Shown here: one piece after another, positions 3,021 to 63,482 of the stretch
Numbering within the stretch: position 1 is the first letter of the stretch
How the letters are laid out: each line of letters opens with the position of its first letter
NCBI GenBank assembly: GCA_002238925.1
Contig: MPNH01000010.1
Coordinates: forward strand, 1 to 64,000
Source of the DNA: Spirochaetaceae bacterium bin103
GTDB lineage: Bacteria; Spirochaetota; Spirochaetia; SZUA-6; Bin103
DNA length: 64,000 nucleotides
Direction: 5' to 3'
Notes under the pieces: model-generated
What the model was told of the DNA's origin: nothing
The model's input: only the letters and a program-made list of their open reading frames with translations
Databases searched by the model: none
Program-made: the position numbers and the translations under genes

Positions 3021-3904
3021 TGCCGCATCCCCCCTTCCAGTTCCGCCTTGGCGGCGGCGTACTCGTCTTCGGTCGGCGGTGTGCCATGCCAGTTGTGGTC
3101 GTATTCCATGAACGACACCCCGCGCCCCTTGGTGGTGCGGGCAATGATAACGGCGGGCCGCGCGTGCACCTGGTCGGCACGGTCGAGCGCCTCCAGAACC
3201 TCGCGCACGTTGTGGCCGCCGATCTCCTGCACGTGCCACCCGAACGCCTGCCACTTGGCCGCAATCGGCTCGTGCGGCATAACGTCGGCGGTGGCGCCGG
3301 TCTGCTGGGTGCCGTTGTAGTCCAGGATCGCCACCAGGTTGCCGAGCCGGTACTTGGCCGCCAACATGGCACCCTCCCAGATTACCCCGGCGTCGATCTC
3401 GCCGTCGCCGAGAACCACGTACACGCTGGCCGGCGAGGCCGCTCCCGACGGCGCCGTCTGGGCCGACGGTTTGGCGTCGCGCTCGCGCAGGCCCAACGCC
3501 ATACCGCAGCCGACCGCCACCCCGTGCCCGAGCGGCCCGGCGGGAATCTCGATGCCCGGCGTCTTGCGGTCCGGGTGCCCCTGCAACAGGCTGTCCACCT
3601 TGCGGAAGCTCAGCAGCTCGGAAGGCGGGAAGAAGCCGCGATGCGCCAGCGCCGAGTAGAGGGCGGCGCAGGCATGCCCCTTCGAGAACAGCAGCCGGTC
3701 GCGGTCCGGCCAATCAGGACGCCCGGGATCGATGCGCAGGTGGTGGAAGTAAAGCGCCGCCAGGATCTCTGCGCAGGAGAAGGCGCCGCCCAGGTGGCCG
3801 CTGTTGCTGTCGTGGACCATCTCCAGCACGTCCAGCCGGAACTGCTGGGCCCGCCGGTGCAGCTCGCGCACGAGCCCCTCGGGATGGTCATGAGTATGCC
3901 GCAT
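3008..3904 (-). CDS. Transketolase, N-terminal subunit (thiamine diphosphate binding)
   Basis: 298 residues, the thiamine-diphosphate-binding half. The metal/ThDP motif is seen as G-D-G-E-I-D-A-G ending in D-Y-N-G-T-Q, with S-N-S-G-H-L-G-G near residue 35 and G-P-L-G-H-G in the middle. Split transketolases of this kind often serve sugar-catabolic clusters rather than central metabolism. The start ATG lies only six bases downstream of a strong -10 box and has no Shine-Dalgarno sequence, so the mRNA is probably leaderless. Co-transcribed with the C-terminal subunit. Confidence 0.9.
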   Translation of the reverse strand: MRHTHDHPEGLVRELHRRAQQFRLDVLEMVHDSNSGHLGGAFSCAEILAALYFHHLRIDPGRPDWPDRDRLLFSKGHACAALYSALAHRGFFPPSELLSFRKVDSLLQGHPDRKTPGIEIPAGPLGHGVAVGCGMALGLRERDAKPSAQTAPSGAASPASVYVVLGDGEIDAGVIWEGAMLAAKYRLGNLVAILDYNGTQQTGATADVMPHEPIAAKWQAFGWHVQEIGGHNVREVLEALDRADQVHARPAVIIARTTKGRGVSFMEYDHNWHGTPPTEDEYAAAKAELEGGMRQWLN

Positions 3905-3910
3905 GCGCCG

Positions 3911-3939
3911 AACCTAAGCCGCACCCCCTCCCCGGTCAA
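3911..3939 (-). promoter_or_regulatory. Promoter of the split transketolase operon (leaderless type)
   Basis: On the minus strand, -35 TTGACC (3939-3934), a 17-bp spacer and -10 TAGGTT (3916-3911). Six bases (cggcgc) then separate the -10 from ATG 3904, so transcription should start at or next to the start codon. Confidence 0.75.
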
Positions 3940-28385: not shown

Positions 28386-28414
28386 TTGACCCGTCGGGGC
28401 CGGCTCCATAGGAT
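28386..28414 (+). promoter_or_regulatory. Promoter of the second LplB-LplC operon (near-leaderless)
   Basis: TTGACC (28386-28391), 17-bp spacer, TAGGAT (28409-28414), then eight bases to ATG 28423. Its -35 is 53 bp from the -35 of the divergent sulfatase promoter, so one regulator could control both. Confidence 0.75.
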
Positions 28415-28422
28415 TCGCTCCG

Positions 28423-29376
28423 ATGGCGGATCTTCCCGCGGCAAAGCCCCTGTCCCCTGCCCGGCCAGGCACCTTGCAGCGCGCCGGGCGCGTGCTGCGC
28501 AAGGACCGCTATCTCTACCTGATCTTCCTGCTGCCGTTCCTCTACTTCCTGGTATTTCACTACCTGCCGATCTACGGCGTCATCATCGCGTTCAAGAATT
28601 ACAAGGTGGCGTTCGGCATCTGGGGCTCCAAGTGGGTCGGGCTGCAGTATTTCATCGAGTTCCTGACCGATCCCTACGCCTGGAAGCTGATCCGCAACAC
28701 CATGCTGCTGTCGTTCTACAGCATCGTGTTCGGCTTCCCGATACCGATCATCCTGGCGCTGCTGCTCAACGAGCTGCAGATCTCCTGGTTCAAGCGCGTG
28801 GTGCAGACGGTCAGCTACCTGCCGCACTTCATCTCGGTGGTGGTGGTGGCCGGGATGGTCGTGAACTTCCTGTCCAGCGACGGCCTGGTGAACCGCATCA
28901 TCGTGGCGCTCGGCGGCGAGTCGTTCCCGTGGCTGATGCAGCCGCGCTGGTTCCCGGGCATCTACGTGATCTCCGGGATCTGGCAACACGCCGGCTGGAG
29001 TTCGATCATCTATCTGGCCGCCCTTTCGGCCATCGACCCGGAACTGTACGAGGCGGCCACCATCGACGGCGCAGGCCGCTTCCAGAAGATGCGCCACATC
29101 ACCCTGCCCGGCATCGCCCCCACCATCACCATCCTGCTGATCCTCGATCTCGGGCGCATCATGTCGGTTGGCTGGGAGAAGATCCTGCTGCTGTACACCG
29201 GCGCCACCTACGAGACCGCCGACGTGCTGCAGACCTACATCTACCGCCGCGGCCTGGAGGGCGCCGACTTCAGCTATGCCACCGCGGTAGGCGTGTTCCA
29301 GGGGCTGGTGGGCCTGGCATTCGTGATCGGGGCCAACTACCTGTCGCGCCGGCTGTCGGATACCAGCCTGTGGTAA
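28423..29376 (+). CDS. ABC transporter permease, LplB type (second system)
   Basis: 317 residues, six membrane segments; Y-L-Y-L-I-F-L-L-P-F-L-Y-F opening, EAA loop L-Y-E-A-A-T-I-D-G-A-G-R-F and C-terminal L-S-D-T-S-L-W as in the LplB protein at 13194. The close similarity and identical gene order suggest duplication of a transporter cassette. No Shine-Dalgarno site before the start. Confidence 0.9.
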   Translation: MADLPAAKPLSPARPGTLQRAGRVLRKDRYLYLIFLLPFLYFLVFHYLPIYGVIIAFKNYKVAFGIWGSKWVGLQYFIEFLTDPYAWKLIRNTMLLSFYSIVFGFPIPIILALLLNELQISWFKRVVQTVSYLPHFISVVVVAGMVVNFLSSDGLVNRIIVALGGESFPWLMQPRWFPGIYVISGIWQHAGWSSIIYLAALSAIDPELYEAATIDGAGRFQKMRHITLPGIAPTITILLILDLGRIMSVGWEKILLLYTGATYETADVLQTYIYRRGLEGADFSYATAVGVFQGLVGLAFVIGANYLSRRLSDTSLW

Positions 29377-43175: not shown

Positions 43176-44170
43176 CACATCTGTTTCTCGAACCGGATGC
43201 GCGGATCCACCACCACCAGCAGGAGGTCCGATATCAGCGTGCCGAACAGCCCCAGCGAACCCAGGAACAGGATCAGGCTGGCGGCAATCTGCAGGTCCTG
43301 CTCCAGGAGCGCGGTCAGCAGCAGCGGGCCCACCGTGGGCAGGCTCAGCACGATCGACACCAGCGCCTCGCCGGACACCACACCCGCCAGCAGACCCGCC
43401 AGGCCGGACACCATCGGATTGATCGCCAGCCGGATCGGGTACTTGAACAGCAGGCGGCCCTCGCGTACGCCCTTGGCACGCGCGGTCACCACGTACTGCC
43501 TGCCCAGTTCGTCCATCAGCGTGGTGCGCAGCACGCGGATCATCCCGGCCGTGCCGGCGGTGCCGATCACGAACAGCGGCACCGGCAGGTGCTTCATCAG
43601 GTCGATTACCTTGGCGAAGCTCCACGGCGCCACCAGGTACTCGGGCGAAAACAGGCCGCCCGGGCTCCAGCCGAAGTAGCGCTGGAACAGGAACATCAGG
43701 ATGAGCGCGAGCAGGAAGTTGGGCGTGGCCAGCCCCATGAAACCGAATACCACGCCGGTGTAGTCGCCGACCGAGTAGGGATGGGTGGCCGAGTAGATCC
43801 CGATCGGGATCGCGATGATGTAGGTAACCACCATGGTGGACAGCGAGATGACGATCGACAGCATGATACGCTCGCCGATCAGTTCCGCCACCGGCCGGTT
43901 GTGGGTGGCCGATTCACCGAAGTCGCCGCGGACGATGATGTTGGTAATCCACTTCCAGTACTGGATGTGGAACGGTTCCTTGAAGCCCCAGCGCTTGTTG
44001 AGCGCCTCGATGGCCGACTCGTCGAGCGTTACCCCGAACCGCTCCATGTAGTAGATGAAGTTGTCGATCCAGTCTCCCGGCGGCAGCTGAATCACCGCAA
44101 AGGCGACAAAGGACAGCATGATCAGCAGCAGGACCATGTAGAAAAGTCGCCGTCCGATGTAGCTGGCCAT
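43175..44170 (-). CDS. Peptide/nickel-type ABC transporter permease, DppB/OppB family
   Basis: 331 residues, six membrane segments. N-terminus Y-I-G-R-R-L-F-Y-M-V-L-L-L, then G-D-F-G-E-S near 107 and the EAA loop Y-V-V-T-A-R-A-K-G-V-R-E-G-R. The start ATG 44170 lies six bases behind a TAGGCT -10 with a perfect TTGACA -35, and no Shine-Dalgarno site. So oppBC has its own leaderless promoter even though the SBP gene is just upstream. No ATPase genes are nearby. Confidence 0.9.
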   Translation of the reverse strand: MASYIGRRLFYMVLLLIMLSFVAFAVIQLPPGDWIDNFIYYMERFGVTLDESAIEALNKRWGFKEPFHIQYWKWITNIIVRGDFGESATHNRPVAELIGERIMLSIVISLSTMVVTYIIAIPIGIYSATHPYSVGDYTGVVFGFMGLATPNFLLALILMFLFQRYFGWSPGGLFSPEYLVAPWSFAKVIDLMKHLPVPLFVIGTAGTAGMIRVLRTTLMDELGRQYVVTARAKGVREGRLLFKYPIRLAINPMVSGLAGLLAGVVSGEALVSIVLSLPTVGPLLLTALLEQDLQIAASLILFLGSLGLFGTLISDLLLVVVDPRIRFEKQM

Positions 44171-44176
44171 CGTGCG

Positions 44177-44205
44177 AGCCTAAGCCCGCCAATGACCGCT
44201 GTCAA
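44177..44205 (-). promoter_or_regulatory. Promoter of oppB-oppC-like genes (best leaderless example)
   Basis: Minus strand: TTGACA (44205-44200), 17-bp spacer, TAGGCT (44182-44177), six bases cgcacg, ATG 44170. Confidence 0.85.
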
Positions 44206-47251: not shown

Positions 47252-48445
47252 ATGAACGACAGACCGTACCGGGCGGCGCTCATCGGGTTGGGCAGGATCG
47301 CGGACACCATCGACGACGAGACCGTGGGCAGTGGCTGGCTGCGGCCTTTCAGCCACATGGGCAGCTACATGGACGTGCCCGAGGTGCAGGTGGTCGGCGC
47401 CGCCGACAAGTACCGTGAACAACGGGAAGTGTTCGGGCGGCGCTGGAGCGTGCCCGAAGACAAGCTGTACGAGAACTACCGGGAGATGCTCGAGCGGGAG
47501 CGCCCCGACATCGTCAGCATCTGTACCCACGTCGCGCCGCGGGCGGAGATCACGCTGGACATCGTGCGCATGGTCCGGGAGGGACGCACCGGCGTGAAGT
47601 GCATCTGGGTGGAGAAGCCGATGGCGACCTCTCTGCAGGAGGCCGACGCGATGGTGGAGGCATGCCGCGAGGCGGGCGTGATCCTGATGTTGAACGCCAT
47701 GCGCGCATCCGACGTGTACTACCGCCGGGCGCGCGCGCTGATCGACGAAGGCGCCCTGGGCAGGATGCTGCAGATTACCGCGCACGGGTCGGGGCCGCTG
47801 GCGCACATGGGCGTGCACTGGATCGGCGCCATGTGCGTGCTGGCCGGCGGCAGCGAGCGGGTGTCGTGGCTGGTGGGTGAGGCCGAGAGCGACGAGAAGG
47901 CGGACAGCGGCGGCGATCTGGCCGGCAACGCCTACCTGGCGTTCGCAAACGGCGCGCGCGGTTTCTGCCGGATGATGCCGAGCGGCGCGTCCACCTGGAC
48001 GCTCGACGCCATCGGCGAGCACGGTACGATCTCCATCCGCAACGGCAACGAGGGCTACGAGTTCGAGGTGTGGCGGATGGGCGAACTCGTCGAGGGGGCC
48101 CGTCCGACCCCGGTGCGGTACGTGTTCCCGCGCCCGCAGCGCATCTGGAGCGCGGGTGTCGGGCAGGTCAAGGACGCCATCGCCTGCATCGAGACCGGCA
48201 AGACGCCCAACTGCTCGGGCGACATGGGGCGCCACCTGCTGGAGATCGCCATCGCGATTCGCGAATCGCACGTGCGCGGCAACGTCCGCGTGGACCTGCC
48301 GCTCGCCGACCGCAGCCTGGCGCTGCGCAGAGAATCAAACGACACGCCCGCCGCGCTCGCCAATCGCGGCCGGCCTGATCCCACCCACCTGCTCGCCACC
48401 ATCGCCCGGCGCGAAGGCACCGACAAGCGGCGTCCACTCTCATAG
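47252..48445 (+). CDS. Gfo/Idh/MocA-family oxidoreductase
   Basis: 397 residues. Rossmann start A-L-I-G-L-G-R-I-A near 8-16, active-site block V-E-K-P-M-A-T near 123, and H-W-I-G near 187 in place of the usual D-x-x-x-H pattern, so the catalytic His arrangement may differ. The C-terminal about 35 residues are Arg-rich and variable. It should act on a sugar or cyclitol as NAD(P)-dependent dehydrogenase. Neighbours are a PhyH enzyme upstream and the IolD-transaldolase-sulfatase operon converging downstream. Confidence 0.85.
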   Translation: MNDRPYRAALIGLGRIADTIDDETVGSGWLRPFSHMGSYMDVPEVQVVGAADKYREQREVFGRRWSVPEDKLYENYREMLERERPDIVSICTHVAPRAEITLDIVRMVREGRTGVKCIWVEKPMATSLQEADAMVEACREAGVILMLNAMRASDVYYRRARALIDEGALGRMLQITAHGSGPLAHMGVHWIGAMCVLAGGSERVSWLVGEAESDEKADSGGDLAGNAYLAFANGARGFCRMMPSGASTWTLDAIGEHGTISIRNGNEGYEFEVWRMGELVEGARPTPVRYVFPRPQRIWSAGVGQVKDAIACIETGKTPNCSGDMGRHLLEIAIAIRESHVRGNVRVDLPLADRSLALRRESNDTPAALANRGRPDPTHLLATIARREGTDKRRPLS

Positions 48446-48487: not shown

Positions 48488-49990
48488 TCAGAACGGCGAC
48501 CTGCCGCCACCCGTGGCCGCCGCCGCGCGAACCAGTTGGCGGCGGCGCTGGCTGGCGCGCACTTCGCGGTCGATGCGGCGCCAGTCCCAGCGGCGCAACA
48601 GGGCATCGGTCATGTCCTCCTGCACACCCGCCACGGCGGGGTCGCCCGCCAGGTTGGTGAACTCGCCGGGATCCTTCTCCAGGTCGTACAGTTCCGGTTC
48701 CAGGTCCTCGGCGCCGGACAGGCACAGCTTCCAGCGCCCGCGCCGCAGCATGGCGCGCGCCCGGTCGGTGCCGTGCGCGGTGTGTTCGGCAAACGCCTCG
48801 CCGCGCCACTCGGGGTCGGAGCCGGCGAGCAGCCCGGCCAGGTTACGGCCGTCCATCGGCGCCGCCGGCGCCGCCGCGCCCGCGGCCCCCACGATAGTGG
48901 CTGCCACGTCCACCAGGGATACACACTCGCCCACCCGGCGCCCGGCCGCCGCGCGGCGCGGCCAGCGAATCTGCAGGGGGACGCGCGCGGACTGCTCGTA
49001 GAAGCTCATCTTGCGCCACAGGCCGTGCTCGCCGAGCATCTCGCCGTGATCGCTGGTGTGGATCACCACGGTGTCATCGGCCAGGCCGCACTCGTCGAGC
49101 GCATCCAGGAGCTGGCGCAGCTTGTCGTCGGCGTAGCTCACCAGCCCGTAGTAGGCGGCCCGTGCGCGGCGCACCTGCGCCTCGGTGTGGCCGGAGAAAC
49201 CGAACGCCCGCCGCAACCGTCGCGCGGCCGGCGGAAGCGCCTCCAGGTGGCCGGACGGCAGGTGCGGCAGGTCGGCGTGATGCGGGAAGTACTGCGAGAA
49301 GAACGGCTCCGGCACGACGAACGGAAAGTGCGGCGCGATCAGGCCCACGCACAGGGCGAACGGGCGCCCGGTCCGCCCATGAGCGCGGCTGCGCAGATAG
49401 GCCACGGCCGCCGCGGTCGCGTCGTCGTCGGCATCGATCTCGGGGGTGCGTCCCGGTCCGGTGGGCGGGCTGTCAAAGTCCTCACCGCCGCCCGCCGCTT
49501 CCGCCTCTACCCCGTCCGGGCCGGGCGGCACGCGCGAGTCGGTGCGCACGACGCCGGGCCACGGCTCGGATGCCTCCGGAATACCGTCGTCCCAGGGGAA
49601 TATCGGGTGTTGCAGCTCGATGTGCAGGTCGCGCGCCAACTGCTCCTGGAAGCCGTGCAACGGATCGTCCCCGATCAGGTGCATCTTGCCCGACAGGGCG
49701 GTGTCGTATCCCTGCGCGCGCAGCAGGTGCGGCCAGGTCACCGCGTCCGCCGGCAGCGGGGTGGCGTTGTCCCAGCCGCGGCAGCGGTGGGTGTACTGCC
49801 CGGTCATGAACGAGAGGCGCGACGGTACGCACAGCGGGTTGTTGCAGTAGGCGGCATCGAAGGTCACGCCCTCGGCCGCCAGCCGGTCCATGGCCGGCGT
49901 GGCAATGAACGGGTGGCCGTACGTGCCGCTGAACTGCGCGCCGTGCTCGTCGGTAAGCAGCAACAGGATGTTGGGGCGCCGCCCGCTCAC
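48488..49990 (-). CDS. Type I sulfatase in the IolD-transaldolase operon
   Basis: 500 residues from GTG 49990, whose GTGA overlaps the transaldolase stop by four bases. L-L-T-D-E-H-G near 11-17, modification motif C54-V-P-S-R, and H-T-S-D-H-G-E-M-L-G-E-H-G-L. This is the choline-sulfatase-like branch. No signal peptide. Being translationally coupled to a transaldolase and an IolD-like hydrolase points to a cytoplasmic substrate such as a sulfated cyclitol or sugar. Confidence 0.92.
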   Translation of the reverse strand: MSGRRPNILLLLTDEHGAQFSGTYGHPFIATPAMDRLAAEGVTFDAAYCNNPLCVPSRLSFMTGQYTHRCRGWDNATPLPADAVTWPHLLRAQGYDTALSGKMHLIGDDPLHGFQEQLARDLHIELQHPIFPWDDGIPEASEPWPGVVRTDSRVPPGPDGVEAEAAGGGEDFDSPPTGPGRTPEIDADDDATAAAVAYLRSRAHGRTGRPFALCVGLIAPHFPFVVPEPFFSQYFPHHADLPHLPSGHLEALPPAARRLRRAFGFSGHTEAQVRRARAAYYGLVSYADDKLRQLLDALDECGLADDTVVIHTSDHGEMLGEHGLWRKMSFYEQSARVPLQIRWPRRAAAGRRVGECVSLVDVAATIVGAAGAAAPAAPMDGRNLAGLLAGSDPEWRGEAFAEHTAHGTDRARAMLRRGRWKLCLSGAEDLEPELYDLEKDPGEFTNLAGDPAVAGVQEDMTDALLRRWDWRRIDREVRASQRRRQLVRAAAATGGGRSPF

Positions 49991-50775
49991 CCCTGCCGCA
50001 CCACTCCCTCGAGCAGGCCGGCTTCCTGCATCTGGCGCCATTCGCCGGCGAAGGTGTCGTTCCAGGTGGCAGTAAGCGGGTGCTCCAGCAGGTCCCGGAA
50101 GATCGGCCAGAACACGATGATGCCGTCGGCGCCGGCGGCCAGCGCCGCGGTGGCCGTCTCCACCGAGCGTACCAGTGCCGCGGTCACGAACGGGCGCTGC
50201 CGCCACGGGGCGAACATGGCGGCACAGTCGCGCACCAGCTTGCCCGGATCGCCGCCCATCTCGCGGATCGGCTCGCAGAACGGCAGCACGTGGGGGGGGC
50301 CCGCCCCGGCGGGGGCCGCGGGCCGGCCCAGGGCAAACACGGGGGGGGGGGGGGGGGGGCGCCCCCCCGCCCGAGCGGCTGCCGCGGCCTGGCCAAGCGA
50401 AAACACGGTGGTGCAGAAGGTGGTTACCCCCTCGTCCGCCAACGGCCCGAACGCACCGAGGCCCTGCGCCGTGCACGGAATCTTGATCGCGATCTGCGGC
50501 GACAGGGCGGTGAACACGCGGCTCACCTCCAGCAGTTCCTCGGTGGTGTGCCCCTCCACCTCGATCACCACCAGCTTGTCGGTAATGTCCAGGTAGCGGC
50601 GCGTCACCTCCAGCAGGCCGCCGTACTTGGCCGCCAACTCGCGCTGCACCACCGTGTTGGTCACGATCCCGGCCGCGCCGCGGGCCAGCCACTCGCCAAG
50701 ATCCGCGGGATCGCCCGCCAGCCAGACGCCCGGTCCGGGGCGGCTGCCGAGCACGTCACTTACCGTCAAACTCAT
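49987..50775 (-). CDS. Transaldolase / fructose-6-phosphate aldolase-like protein with a suspect insert
   Basis: 262 residues as read; FSA/TalC-type enzymes have about 220. The Schiff-base lysine is in I-A-I-K-I-P near residue 98, followed by V-T-T-F-C-T-T-V-F-S. After L-G-Q-A-A-A-A-A-R-A-G-G comes an extra block of about 21 residues (P-rich, then V-F-A-L-G-R-P-A-A-P-A-G-A-G) that repeats the preceding segment in altered form before H-V-L-P-F-C-E-P resumes. The DNA there includes 19 consecutive G on the plus strand (50341-50359). The insert looks like a consensus error or a recent tandem duplication. AAGGAGC precedes ATG 50775. Confidence 0.8.
   Translation of the reverse strand: MSLTVSDVLGSRPGPGVWLAGDPADLGEWLARGAAGIVTNTVVQRELAAKYGGLLEVTRRYLDITDKLVVIEVEGHTTEELLEVSRVFTALSPQIAIKIPCTAQGLGAFGPLADEGVTTFCTTVFSLGQAAAAARAGGRPPPPPPVFALGRPAAPAGAGPPHVLPFCEPIREMGGDPGKLVRDCAAMFAPWRQRPFVTAALVRSVETATAALAAGADGIIVFWPIFRDLLEHPLTATWNDTFAGEWRQMQEAGLLEGVVRQG
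50341..50359 (+). repeat. Homopolymer of 19 G within the transaldolase gene
   Basis: 19 consecutive G followed by cgccccccc. It sits inside the block that duplicates the neighbouring coding segment. An artefact of sequencing or assembly is the most likely reading. Confidence 0.8.
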
Positions 50776-50798
50776 CGTGTTGCTCCTTCACTCCGGAA

Positions 50799-52735
50799 TC
50801 AGTAGTGGAACCGCTGCAGCTCGGCGCGGTCGCGCTCGTACTCGGAACGCAGCGTCTGCGTCACCTCGCTGCGGCTCACCTCTGCCGGCGCCACGTCCCA
50901 CCAGGTATCGGCCCCCGGCACGTAGCGGTGCTTCTCCACCTCGCACACGATCACGCACGAGCGCGTCTCGGCGCGGGCCTCGCGCAGCGCGGCGCGGACT
51001 TCGTCCTGCGTGGCCGCGTTCCAGGCGCGCGCGCCCATGCCGCGCGCGATCGCGGCGATGTCCACCGGCAGGTACTCTCCTTCCAGGCGCGGACCGTCGT
51101 CGGCGCCGGTGCTGCCGTCCGCCGCGCCGCCGCGGGCGCGCAACTCGTTGCCGAACGCGTGCCCGGTGCGCCACATCTGCAAGCGCCGGATCACCTGGAA
51201 GCCGTGGTTGTCGATCACCACCACGGTCACCTTCAGCTGCTCCTGCAAAGCGGTGATCAGCTCCATCGGATTGAGCAGAAAGGTGCCGTCGCCGATGTAC
51301 ACGAACACCTCGCCCCGCCTGCCGGGACCGCCCCGCCGGGACGCCCGGCCCCCCCGGCCGCCATGCGCACGCCGACCCCGGCGGGCAACTCGTAGCCCAT
51401 GCAGGAGAAGCCGAACTCGATGTGGCAGCGGCTGCCGTTGCCGCCATCCCACAGCTTGAGGATGTTGCCGGGCGGCGCCCCGGCCGCCGCGACCACGGTG
51501 TCGTGGCCCTGCGACTCCTCGTTGAGCACCTCGATCACCTGCCCCTCGCTCATCACCTCGCCGGGATGGTCGCCGTAGGCGTCGGTACGCACGATCTTGT
51601 CCCAGTCCTGCTGCGCCTCGGCGACCCGTTCGCCGTAACCCGGGAACGCCACCCCGGCGCCCTGCCCGGCAGTGAGCAGCGCCTCCAGGGCGAGCCGGGC
51701 GTCCGCCACCACCGGCAGCGCGCCCTGCTTGAAGGCGTCCAGCGCGCACACGTTGATGGCGATAAAGCGCACGTCCGGATCATGAAACAGGCTCTGCGAC
51801 GCGGTGGCGAAGTCGCTCAAGCGGGTGCCGACCGCGATCACCAGGTCCGCCTCCTCCGCAATGCGCGCCGCCGCGCTGGTGCCCTCCACGCCGTGGCCGC
51901 CGAGCGACCACTCCGGGGCGCCGCGCAGCGCGCCCTTGCCGGCGTGCGTCTCGCTCACCGGAATGCCGAACCCGGTGGCCACCGCGCGCAGCGCGTCCCA
52001 CGCCGCCGAGTAGTGCACGCCGCCGCCGGCGATGATCACCGGGCGCTTGGCTGCCTGTAGCAGCGCGACCGCCTCGTCGATGCGCTCCGCGACCGGCGGG
52101 CGGCGTTCTATGCGCCAGGTGCGCTCGGCGAAAAACTGGCTCGGGTAGTCCCAAGCATGCGCCTGCACGTCCTGCGGCAGCGACAGCGTTACCGCGCCGG
52201 TTTCGGCCGGGTCGGTGAGCACCCGCATCGCCTGCGGCAGCGCGGTAAGGAGCTGTTCCGGCCGGGTGATGCGGTCGAAAAACCGGCTCACCGGGCGGAA
52301 GCAGTCGTTCACGCTCACGTCCGCCGCCGACGGGTGCTCCAGTTGCTGCAGCACCGGCCCCTGGTGGCGGGTGGCGTAGTAGTCGGAGGCCAGCAGCAGC
52401 ACCGGCATCCGGTTGATGGTGGCAGTGGCCGCCCCGGTCACCATGTTGGTGGCGCCGGGCCCGATCGAGCTGGTGCAGGCCAGCGTCTGGGTGCGCAGGG
52501 TGGCGCGCGCGAAGCCCGCCGCGGTGTGCACCATCGACTGCTCGTTGCGCGTCTGGTGGTAGGGCAGATCCGCCCCGCCCTGCTCCAGGGCCTGCCCCAG
52601 CCCGCACACGTTGCCATGCCCGAAGATGCCGAAGATGGCCGGTATCAGCCGCCGCCGCTCCCCGTCGAACTCGCTATACTGAACCGCCAGGTACTTCACA
52701 AGAGCCTGCCCCATGGTCAGGCGTTCGGTCCCCAT
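50799..52735 (-). CDS. iolD: IolD-like thiamine-diphosphate hydrolase, frameshifted as read
   Basis: Corrected product about 645 residues. ThDP-dependent enzyme of the acetolactate-synthase superfamily: catalytic Glu in R-N-E-Q-S-M near 66, G-P-G-A-T-N-M near 94, and the C-terminal ThDP motif Y-I-G-D-G-T-F-L-L-N-P. It matches IolD, which opens 3D-(3,5/4)-trihydroxycyclohexane-1,2-dione in myo-inositol breakdown. The first frame fails after G-V-R-M-A near 51350 in a G/C-run stretch; the ending is in another frame (total length two bases over a multiple of three). The extra low-complexity residues at the break suggest sequence error rather than decay. First gene of the operon. Confidence 0.8.
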
Positions 52736-52741
52736 GGCGCT

Positions 52742-52771
52742 ACCTTACGGCCCCCGCGCGCGCAGCGTCAA
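52742..52771 (-). promoter_or_regulatory. Promoter of the IolD-transaldolase-sulfatase operon (leaderless)
   Basis: Minus strand: TTGACG (52771-52766), 18-bp spacer, TAAGGT (52747-52742), six bases, ATG 52735. Confidence 0.65.
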
Positions 52772-52796: not shown

Positions 52797-53582
52797 CTAA
52801 CCGCGCCCGGAGCGTGCGTGCTTTTTGACCTGGTACTTCCAGGGTACCGGGTCGCGGCGGCGGTGGGCGAAGGCGGCGCTGGTTGCCGGGGCGTTGTGGT
52901 AGTGCTGGGCGATGGCGATGCGGCGCTCGACGCCGCGGTTGGCGAATGCACCATGCACGACGTTCTTGTGGTGGAAGCTGACGTCGCCTGGCTCCAGTTC
53001 CAGCGGGATCAACTCGTGCTCGGGGACGCCGCCGGTGATGGTCTTGAACATGCTCACGCCGCCTGTCCAGTGGTGGTCGTGGATGCGGTGGCGGTGGCTG
53101 CCCGGAAGCAGCCACATGGTGCCGCCGTGGGCGGTGGTGCGGCGCAGCGGCATCCACGCGGTCACCGCCGTGAAACCGGCGCGCTGCAGCTGCCAGTAGT
53201 GGTCGTCCTGGTGCCAGGGAGTGGCGTTGGCGGCGGCCGGTCCCTTGATCAGGGCCTGCTGCTGGAACACGGTGGCACACGCCGCCTCCATCAGTGCGGC
53301 GGCGGCGCCCCGCACGCGCGGGTTGCCGGCCAGCGCGGCCAGCACGGGGTCGTTGACCGGAAACCTGGTGGCCATGACCTGCAGGATGAAGCGGCCCGGG
53401 TCGTCGGGGGTCTCCCAGGACGCCGGCCCGCACACGAAACCGGCGCTCGGGTAGCGTCCGTCCAGCATGCCGTCGAGGCGCTCCACCAGCCGCTCCACGT
53501 CGCCGCGCGGCAACAGCCGGCGAATCGTCACGTGGCCGTGCTCCCGGTAGTACGCGATGTCCGCCGCGCTCACAAACGCCAC
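52797..53582 (-). CDS. Phytanoyl-CoA dioxygenase (PhyH) family protein behind tRNA-Val
   Basis: 261 residues from GTG 53582, with AAGGAGG six bases upstream. Fe(II)/2-oxoglutarate site complete: W-H-Q-D near 124-127 and distal V-H-G-A-F near 218, with R-R-I-A near 230 for 2-oxoglutarate. Its start lies 16 bp downstream of a tRNA-Val gene on the same strand, and no separate promoter fits between them, so the message is probably released from a tRNA-mRNA precursor. Substrate unknown. Confidence 0.88.
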   Translation of the reverse strand: MAFVSAADIAYYREHGHVTIRRLLPRGDVERLVERLDGMLDGRYPSAGFVCGPASWETPDDPGRFILQVMATRFPVNDPVLAALAGNPRVRGAAAALMEAACATVFQQQALIKGPAAANATPWHQDDHYWQLQRAGFTAVTAWMPLRRTTAHGGTMWLLPGSHRHRIHDHHWTGGVSMFKTITGGVPEHELIPLELEPGDVSFHHKNVVHGAFANRGVERRIAIAQHYHNAPATSAAFAHRRRDPVPWKYQVKKHARSGRG

Positions 53583-61266: not shown

Positions 61267-63378
61267 GTGTCGGGCATGGGCGTGGTCCTCAATCCGGAAC
61301 AGGAACGGGCGGCCGCCGCCATCGACGGGCCGCTCATGGTGCTCGCGGGCGCCGGCTCCGGCAAGACGCGCGTCATCACCGCGCGGCTGGCGCGCATGCT
61401 GCAAGCCGGCGTTGATCCGCGCGCCATCGTCGCCCTGACCTTTACCAACAAGGCGGCCGCCGAGATGCGCGAACGCGCGGGCATCTCCCGGCGCGGACGG
61501 CGCGCCGTTCCCACCGTGTGCACCTTCCATGCCCTCGGCCTGGAGCTGGTGCGCCGCTTCAGCGCCGAGTTGGGGTTCCGGTCCGCAAGCACCGGCACCG
61601 GTGCCGCCGCCGCGGTACCGGTTACCGTGTACGACCAGCAGGACAGCGCCCAGCTCCTGCGCGAGGTAGCGCGCGACCTGCGCCTGGATGCCGACCTGGC
61701 GGAGGCCGATTCGGCCGTGCTGCAGCGGCTGGTATCGGGGCTGCGCATGGGCGTCGCCGGCGTCCCGGACCTGGACGGAGCCAGCGAACAGCTGCGCGGG
61801 CTGGTGTCCGCCTACCGGCGCCGGCTGCGCCTGTACCACGCCGTCGACTTCGACGACTTGATCCTGCTGCCGCTGGAGCTGCTGCGCGGCGACGCCGGCG
61901 ACGCCATCCGGGCGCGCTTCAGCCACGTGATGGTGGACGAGTTCCAGGACACCTCGCGTCGCCAGTACGAAATCCTGCACGCCCTCACCGAGGCGGCGCG
62001 CAACGTGTGCGTGGTGGGCGACGACGACCAGTCGATCTACTCCTGGCGCGGCGCCGAGGCGGCCAACTTCGACCACTTCAGCCGCGACTTCCCGGAGCGG
62101 CTGGAGATCAAGCTGGAACAGAACTACCGCTCCACCGGCTCCATCCTGGCATTCGCCAACGCCGTAATCAGCGGCAACAGCGGCCGGCGGCCCAAAAAGC
62201 TGTGGAGCGACGGCGGCGCCGGGATGCACGTCATGGCCGCCTACCCGGAGAGCGACACCGACGAGGCGGAGTGGATCGTGCGTCAGATCCGCAGCCTGGC
62301 GCTCGGCAGTGGCCTGCGCTACGCCGACTGCGCGGTGCTGGTGCGCGCCAACAGCCTTACCCGCGCCCTGGAAGAGGTGCTGTTGCGCGAGGGTATTGCC
62401 TACCAGGTGTCGGGCGGCATGAGCTTCTTCAGCCGCCGCGAGGTGCGCGACCTGATTGCCTACCTGCGCGTACTGGCCAACCCGGACGACGACGTCAGCA
62501 TGCGCCGCATCATCAACACGCCGCGGCGCGGCCTGGGCGCCGCCGCCCTGGAGCGCATCACCGCCACCGCGGCGGCGCACCACTGCTCGCTGTACTCGGC
62601 GGTGGTCCTGATCGGCGGCGGCACCGAGGCCGAGTCACCGCCCGAGCATGCCCGCCTGCGCCCGCTCGCCGGCGAGCTGGTGGAGCTGCTGGAGCGCTAC
62701 GCGGCGCGCATCCGCGGCGCCGAGCGCAGCCGCGCCATGGCGTCGGTGCTGACCGAGCTGGTCGACGAGCTGCAGTACCGCAACCACCTGCTGGACGGCG
62801 TCCGGGCCGATGCCGCGCGCTGGAAGCTGGCCAACGTGGATGCGGTAATCGACTCGCTGGCCTCCTTCGAGCAACACCCCGACCGCATCGCTCCCTCCCT
62901 GACCGACTATCTCGCGCGCACCGCCCTGGTGAGCCGCGACGACGACTCCCCCGACCGCGGCGGCGACGAGCGCGGGCGGGTTCAGTTGATGACCATCCAC
63001 GCCGCCAAGGGCCTGGAATTCGACACCGTGTTCATCGCCGGCGCCGACGACGGCTCCATTCCGCACGCCCGCTCGCTGGCCGATGGCGAAGCCAACCTGG
63101 CGGAGGAGCGGCGCCTGTTCTACGTCGCCGCCACCCGTGCCCGGGAGCGCCTGTACATTACCAGTCCCGCGGTGCGGCGGCGGCGCGGCCCCCGCGGCCG
63201 CCCCCAGGAGCACGCCGCCCGGGCCGGCCGCCCGGCGGCCCCCCCCCCCGAGCCGTCCCGCTTCCTCGGCGAGATCCCTCCCCACTTGGTCGACGGCGCC
63301 CCGGACGAGCAGGAACTGGCCCCCGAACAGGCCTCCGCCCTGTTCGCCGACCTCAAGCGCCGCCTCGCCGCCCGCTGA
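61267..63378 (+). CDS. uvrD: ATP-dependent DNA helicase, UvrD/PcrA/Rep family
   Basis: 703 residues from GTG 61267, chosen because the promoter ends six bases upstream and the protein then starts L-N-P-E-Q-E-R-A as family members do. All superfamily 1A motifs are present in order: A-G-A-G-S-G-K-T near 27-34, T-F-T-N-K-A-A near 59, V-D-E-F-Q-D-T, G-D-D-D-Q-S-I-Y-S-W-R-G, Q-N-Y-R-S-T, T-I-H-A-A-K-G-L-E-F and Y-V-A-A-T-R-A-R. It unwinds DNA 3' to 5' in repair or replication. The tail contains a low-complexity Arg/Pro patch over an 11-C run (63239-63249) that may hide sequence error. Confidence 0.93.
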   Translation: MSGMGVVLNPEQERAAAAIDGPLMVLAGAGSGKTRVITARLARMLQAGVDPRAIVALTFTNKAAAEMRERAGISRRGRRAVPTVCTFHALGLELVRRFSAELGFRSASTGTGAAAAVPVTVYDQQDSAQLLREVARDLRLDADLAEADSAVLQRLVSGLRMGVAGVPDLDGASEQLRGLVSAYRRRLRLYHAVDFDDLILLPLELLRGDAGDAIRARFSHVMVDEFQDTSRRQYEILHALTEAARNVCVVGDDDQSIYSWRGAEAANFDHFSRDFPERLEIKLEQNYRSTGSILAFANAVISGNSGRRPKKLWSDGGAGMHVMAAYPESDTDEAEWIVRQIRSLALGSGLRYADCAVLVRANSLTRALEEVLLREGIAYQVSGGMSFFSRREVRDLIAYLRVLANPDDDVSMRRIINTPRRGLGAAALERITATAAAHHCSLYSAVVLIGGGTEAESPPEHARLRPLAGELVELLERYAARIRGAERSRAMASVLTELVDELQYRNHLLDGVRADAARWKLANVDAVIDSLASFEQHPDRIAPSLTDYLARTALVSRDDDSPDRGGDERGRVQLMTIHAAKGLEFDTVFIAGADDGSIPHARSLADGEANLAEERRLFYVAATRARERLYITSPAVRRRRGPRGRPQEHAARAGRPAAPPPEPSRFLGEIPPHLVDGAPDEQELAPEQASALFADLKRRLAAR

Positions 63379-63398: not shown

Positions 63399-63427
63399 TT
63401 GACATGAGGCGGCGGTTTCTTTAGGTT
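63399..63427 (+). promoter_or_regulatory. Promoter of the pyruvate phosphate dikinase gene
   Basis: Perfect TTGACA (63399-63404), 17-bp spacer, TAGGTT (63422-63427). An ATG lies seven bases downstream (63435) but opens only a 15-codon frame; ppdK starts 67 bases later at 63502. Confidence 0.8.
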
Positions 63428-63434
63428 GCGTGCG

Positions 63435-63482
63435 ATGGGACGGGCCCGAAACGGGCACACTTCTCCACGTCCCGGAACCTGA
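63435..63482 (+). CDS. Possible 15-residue leader peptide upstream of ppdK
   Basis: ATG 63435 to TGA 63482, product [15 protein letters not shown]. Its start has exactly the -10-to-ATG distance of the leaderless genes here, so ribosomes could load on it at the 5' end of the mRNA. The ppdK start lies 19 bases after its stop. It may modulate ppdK translation; it could also be chance. Confidence 0.35.

Follow-up and report, generated by a model that had tools for sequence, protein, structure and literature searches.

Do three neighbouring genes that share one promoter in a marine spirochaete also serve one pathway? The question is raised by positions 52735-48488 (minus strand) of a 64,000-nucleotide stretch of Spirochaetaceae bacterium bin103 (contig MPNH01000010.1, positions 1 to 64,000; hereafter the window), where genes for an IolD-type ring-opening hydrolase, a transaldolase-like enzyme and a sulfatase follow one another. 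An earlier note on this DNA had suggested that they form a pathway that acts on a sulfated cyclitol or sugar. The operon is real and lineage-specific; a joint pathway, above all one for a sulfated cyclitol, is not shown. As a tentative explanation, we propose a functional, genus-limited operon by which a marine member of the Spirochaetia may catabolize a small cyclitol-type or sugar-acid-type compound without a kinase.

In the direction of minus-strand transcription, the order of genes is tRNA-Val, PhyH, IolD, the transaldolase-like gene and the sulfatase gene. The IolD gene (50799-52735), which encodes a thiamine pyrophosphate (TPP)-dependent enzyme, matched TIGR04377 in two parts, with 655.4 and 131.5 bits. 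The aldolase gene (49987-50775; PF00923, 51.7 bits) starts 23 bases after the IolD stop codon, and its TGA overlaps the GTG of the sulfatase gene (48488-49990; PF00884, 153.8 bits) in a four-base GTGA junction. The layout described in the earlier note, with three genes on one strand, this junction and one leaderless promoter, was thus confirmed, and order, coupling, promoter and family assignments are all directly observed. A gene of the PhyH dioxygenase family (52797-53582, minus strand; PF05721, 93.1 bits), directly upstream of iolD on the same strand and possibly part of the same transcription unit, had been omitted there.

The genome of the window (G000) was compared with those of a member of the same genus (G002), a member of a sister genus (G003) and a fourth member of the same family (G001). 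In G002 (locus L069), PhyH, IolD, aldolase and sulfatase occur in the same order with the GTGA junction, and the genes are intact (IolD of 637 amino acids, aldolase of 241). In the window, a G+C-rich stretch near 51310-51355 splits IolD over two reading frames. The aldolase gene there carries an in-frame low-quality insert, including a 19-base homopolymer at 50341-50359, that is missing from G002. Because G002 has the intact set in the same order, both defects were taken as sequence or assembly errors. The dN/dS values between the window and G002 were 0.09-0.18 for the sulfatase, PhyH, both IolD parts and the N-terminal part of the aldolase.

The promoter-like element before iolD, TTGACG-N18-TAAGGT-N6-ATG (52733-52771, minus strand), was examined with the loose pattern TTGAC-N16..20-TANNNT-N4..8-ATG. 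Five copies were found in the window against 0.10 expected, a number reached in none of 100 shuffles: 3902-3939 (minus), 28386-28425 (plus), 44168-44205 (minus), 52733-52771 (minus) and 63399-63437 (plus). The recurring form is TTGAC-N-TAGGNT or TAAGGT-N-ATG. The 20-kb stretch L069 of G002 contains two copies of the loose pattern (0.01 expected). One precedes iolD and the other an oligopeptide permease gene, and both are orthologous to copies in the window. The G002 intergenic DNA upstream of the iolD promoter has diverged, whereas the promoter itself is kept. A stricter scan of the window for standard sigma-70 promoters gave no site. The element is possibly the signature of a class of leaderless promoters in this lineage.

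The window IolD pieces fall below the curated TIGR04377 cut-off (715 bits) because of the frameshift; the intact orthologues pass it (794.1 bits in G002, 762.4 bits in G003). In an IolD tree of 31 rows, in which the G002 copy stands for that of the window, the sequences from G002 and G003 formed a clade (support 100/100, branch 0.77) with those of two Poribacteria (G064, G068), a record titled Gemmatimonadetes (G062) and the second copy of a member of the Caldilineaceae (G072). This clade, which we call IolD2, lies apart from the ordinary IolD found in these lineages. With the long-branch G001 copy excluded, only three positions differ in a fixed manner between the six IolD2 members and the 24 others, and two of them are Tyr/Trp to Phe changes. 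Among 392 Spirochaetota genomes drawn, 19 matched the G002 IolD at E values up to 1e-120; the 18 apart from the window genome were all at most 49% identical. The enzyme resembles the Bacillus-type 3D-(3,5/4)-trihydroxycyclohexane-1,2-dione hydrolase of myo-inositol catabolism in that its G002 and G003 orthologues exceed the family cut-off. It differs in its place in IolD2, and no iolB, iolC or iolJ partner was found.

The earlier note had held that this is not the standard iol pathway, having seen no iolB, C, E or G neighbours, and the statement could be extended to whole genomes. IolB (PF04962), IolC above its cut-off of 300 bits (best score 184.6 bits, in G003) and the DUF2090 aldolase were each absent from all four family genomes. 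A complete normal iol cluster was looked for elsewhere in the window genome and did not occur. KduI/IolB-family matches were present in all four class relatives with IolD; these relatives are also under the IolC cut-off, and the absence of IolC is therefore a weaker test. IolE exceeds its cut-off in G000, G001 and G002 (G003 is under, with 165.1 bits). G000 and G002 each have one strong (315 bits) and one weak match to the class II aldolase family to which IolJ belongs; G001 and G003 have no match. It is well supported that the lower half of the iol pathway is missing from this family. The IolE gene of G000 lies on another contig, with transport genes nearby, as named by eye. At L172 (5170-10665; G000, contig C37) and L173 (G002, contig C171), IolE is near genes that by eye resemble a short-chain dehydrogenase, a TPP enzyme, a hydroxyacid dehydrogenase and HpcH/HpaI; these surroundings possibly represent another cyclitol or sugar-acid cluster.

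The transaldolase-like gene belongs to an unnamed subfamily of class I (Schiff-base) aldolases related to transaldolases and fructose-6-phosphate aldolase (FSA). The label "FSA-type" stands as regards the FSA/TalC fold and the Schiff-base lysine, but as a family name it is too precise: TIGR00875 has an equivalog cut-off of 245.95 bits, and the insert-bearing window copy reached 80.9 bits and the intact relative L073 111.4 bits. The Schiff-base Lys is invariant in all 42 relatives and aligns with the KIP motif of 3s0c. A structure model of L073 (69% identical to the G002 copy; predicted local distance difference test score of 90) was closest to the Thermoplasma acidophilum transaldolase (Z about 29, root-mean-square deviation about 2, 25-26% identity), followed by other small transaldolases and FsaA. 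The likeness to the FSA/TalC family (3s0c and E. coli FsaA, 1l6w) lies in the fold (Z about 29 and 27) and the lysine. The differences, beyond the low equivalog score, are in the active site. In the profile alignment to the T. acidophilum transaldolase, Pro and Leu occupy the positions of Arg135 and Ser167, which we take to be phosphate-clamp residues, and Arg169 is retained. Glu and Phe, presumably the transaldolase pair, are invariant in the subfamily in place of what we take to be the Gln59/Tyr131 acid-base set of FSA. PDB titles show that engineered variants exist (FSA R134V/S166G, FSA Q59E/Y131F and transaldolase E60Q/F132Y). The sulfofructose transaldolase BmSF-TAL (8bc3), which according to its PDB title acts on an acidic-tailed sugar, is of the same fold family, with about 24% identity. 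From sequence and model we infer a Schiff-base enzyme that would not need phosphorylated substrates. We know of no substrate assigned to this subfamily.

Under the proposed explanation, a sulfate ester would be imported and desulfated by a cytoplasmic sulfatase. The IolD-type enzyme would hydrolyse a cyclic 1,2-dione to an open-chain acid of the 5-deoxyglucuronate type, and the Schiff-base enzyme would break this acid, or its keto isomer, in unphosphorylated form, replacing IolB, IolC and IolJ. Alternatively, the sulfatase may have another substrate and be only a passenger in the transcript. In a specific form that we consider unlikely, the compound would be inositol itself: IolE and IolD2 would act in turn, and the partly clamp-less transaldolase-fold enzyme would then split the unphosphorylated acid or pass a dihydroxyacetone unit to an aldehyde. 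This kinase-free route is presented as the best explanation because its mechanism is stated and testable, although assembly of the three genes by chance was rated slightly higher. The aldol stereochemistry of FSA-type enzymes (3S,4R) is compatible with 2-deoxy-5-keto-gluconate, which speaks for the route. In its favour are also the gene order, junction and promoter shared with G002 and the low dN/dS values, the IolD and IolE scores in the family, the missing IolB, IolC and DUF2090, the class II aldolase counts, the invariant Lys and the altered Arg135 and Ser167 positions. The enzyme would share its step, C-C cleavage after IolD, with IolJ and the IolC-DUF2090 aldolases, as far as these are described in the part of PMC9007349 covered; it comes from a different family. 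Should the product of IolD prove to be a substrate of the aldolase, inositol catabolism would have a third way, besides IolJ and IolC-DUF2090, of making its last C-C cleavage. This would also account for the completion of the pathway in bacteria that have IolD but lack IolB or IolC. In the parts of the literature covered, no link between IolD and fructose-6-phosphate aldolase turned up, and for a gene cluster of IolD and sulfatase only an apparently unrelated match was obtained.

The main alternative to the proposed operon function is that three independent catabolic genes were joined by chance in a genus with many sulfatases and dehydrogenases; the operon would then be real without forming one pathway. 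We regard this as quite possible, though short of probable. The neighbourhood search returned the trio in G002, in partial agreement with the earlier note, but only two of the four family genomes reached carry it, no locus searched outside the family shows it, and the idea of a conserved three-gene pathway did not hold beyond the genus. Several results weigh against the proposed route; the situation in G003 and the aldolase-carrying genomes that lack IolD also speak for chance assembly, as do the many sulfatase matches of the window genome. In G003 (five contigs, 97% complete), all three orthologues are present at separate places: IolD at C1:100822 (69% identity), the aldolase at C2:1249446 (about 66%) and the sulfatase at C2:1407338 (70%), the last overlapping a short-chain dehydrogenase gene by four bases. 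IolD was near none of the 76 aldolase loci found in a scan of genome contigs, apart from one 28% match to a TPP enzyme in L137, and IolD above the cut-off was absent from 29 of the 50 aldolase-carrying genomes searched. The absence of IolB is not specific to the IolD2 clade. Finally, the transaldolase-type Glu/Phe pair would make a transfer reaction as likely as cleavage. Against chance assembly, the order, the GTGA junction and the promoter are kept in two species despite the changed DNA upstream of the promoter. If the genes did come together by chance, the locus would be an ordinary lineage-specific operon.

In G001 (81% complete, 510 contigs), the aldolase gene stands at the end of a contig. 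A transporter gene occupies the place of the sulfatase there, and the IolD of this genome, which is of a different type, is encoded on a separate contig. A sulfatase was seen near the aldolase at one of the 76 loci (a distant match in L133, 6-8 kb off). Neither the aldolase nor this sulfatase was present at any of 56 IolD loci other than that of G002; these loci partly overlap, with about 45 distinct genes by place, and many have only about 1.5 kb of flank. Conservation of the operon across phyla was therefore rejected, given the 76 aldolase loci.

IolB loss was also considered as a hallmark of IolD2 and rejected. Among the 21 aldolase-carrying genomes with IolD, 13 had an IolB-family match (eight strong in Caldilineaceae, 260-272 bits; five weak in Poribacteria, where the best stretch scored about 48-52 bits). 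The other eight comprise three IolD2-clade genomes and five with ordinary IolD (G065, G099, G102, G103 and G104), and because of these five the loss is not peculiar to IolD2.

By record titles, the 76 aldolase loci belong mostly to marine Chloroflexota (SAR202, Caldilineaceae), and also to Poribacteria, Latescibacterota, Gemmatimonadetes and the family members G003 (L082) and G001 (L130). The subfamily is thus widespread and matters independently of any link to IolD. An enolase-superfamily gene occurs at 28 of the 76 loci; at four of them it is directly upstream and at 11 two genes upstream, on the same strand. It was not counted as evidence of a partner, because SAR202 genomes have about 80 enolase-superfamily genes, according to the part of PMC10444878 covered. 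The same source reports non-phosphorylative sugar pathways in SAR202 isolates, and the word transaldolase does not occur in its main text. Such pathways fit a phosphate-independent aldolase; they assign no substrate. In Chloroflexota, the aldolase gene often lies between a VOC/glyoxalase-like gene (directly upstream at 16 loci) and a cupin-like gene (directly downstream at 10, 13 in all), and at some loci the second gene upstream is of the enolase superfamily; L078 (9514-11126) and L103 (8375-11307) are examples, the names being given by eye.

The pathway of the earlier note, which would lead from a sulfated cyclitol through desulfation, oxidation and ring opening by IolD to cleavage by the aldolase, appears unlikely. 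In its favour, sulfatase and IolD stand in one layout under one promoter, the missing lower iol pathway means that the IolD product needs another taker, and Gfo/Idh dehydrogenases are nearby. One of these, the convergent Gfo/Idh/MocA oxidoreductase gene at 47252-48445 (plus strand; PF01408, 58.7 bits), is 94.8% identical in G002 and scored 56.6 bits against TIGR04380 (IolG), which has a cut-off of 355. A conserved Gfo/Idh partner of IolD2 was nevertheless rejected, since the dehydrogenases next to IolD2 at L071, L200 and L203 are orthologous neither to one another nor to those of the window. Within the DNA covered, the sulfatase was at none of the 56 other IolD loci. Its closest relatives with an assigned name are choline sulfatases, and no result speaks positively for a sulfated cyclitol as the substrate.

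The neighbouring sulfatase is in any case weak evidence, because the window genome (4.8 Mb) has 75 sulfatase matches, five of them within the window. Given roughly 50 called genes in the window, simple arithmetic puts the chance of at least one sulfatase among two flanking genes at about one in five, strand ignored. A search with this sulfatase gave 126 matches in G000, where the family is greatly expanded.

The sulfatase carries the CxPxR motif of the formylglycine type, and a signal peptide was not evident by eye. Its best family was TIGR03417 (choline sulfatase) with 397 bits, under the curated cut-off of 433.45, and its three top PDB matches, with 6fny the best, were choline sulfatases. 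It thus resembles the choline-O-sulfatase BetC (6fny, 6g5z) in overall sequence, motif and the C-terminal tail, which aligns. In the phmmer alignments to 6fny and 7pth, however, His stands at the position of Glu386, a residue that is fully conserved in choline sulfatases according to the part of PMC5870055 covered. The region of the Trp129/His145 choline hairpin, described in the part of PMC9063841 covered, was unaligned in the PDB comparison. We regard it as improbable that the enzyme is a choline-O-sulfatase that provides sulfate or the precursor of an osmolyte and has no relation to IolD and the aldolase, although the family score, the PDB matches and the aligned tail speak for this.

Upstream of the PhyH gene, the tRNA-Val gene lies at 53671-53599 (minus strand). 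An 11-base C homopolymer at 63239-63249 of the window, in a gene that appears helicase-like by eye, is a possible second site of sequence error.

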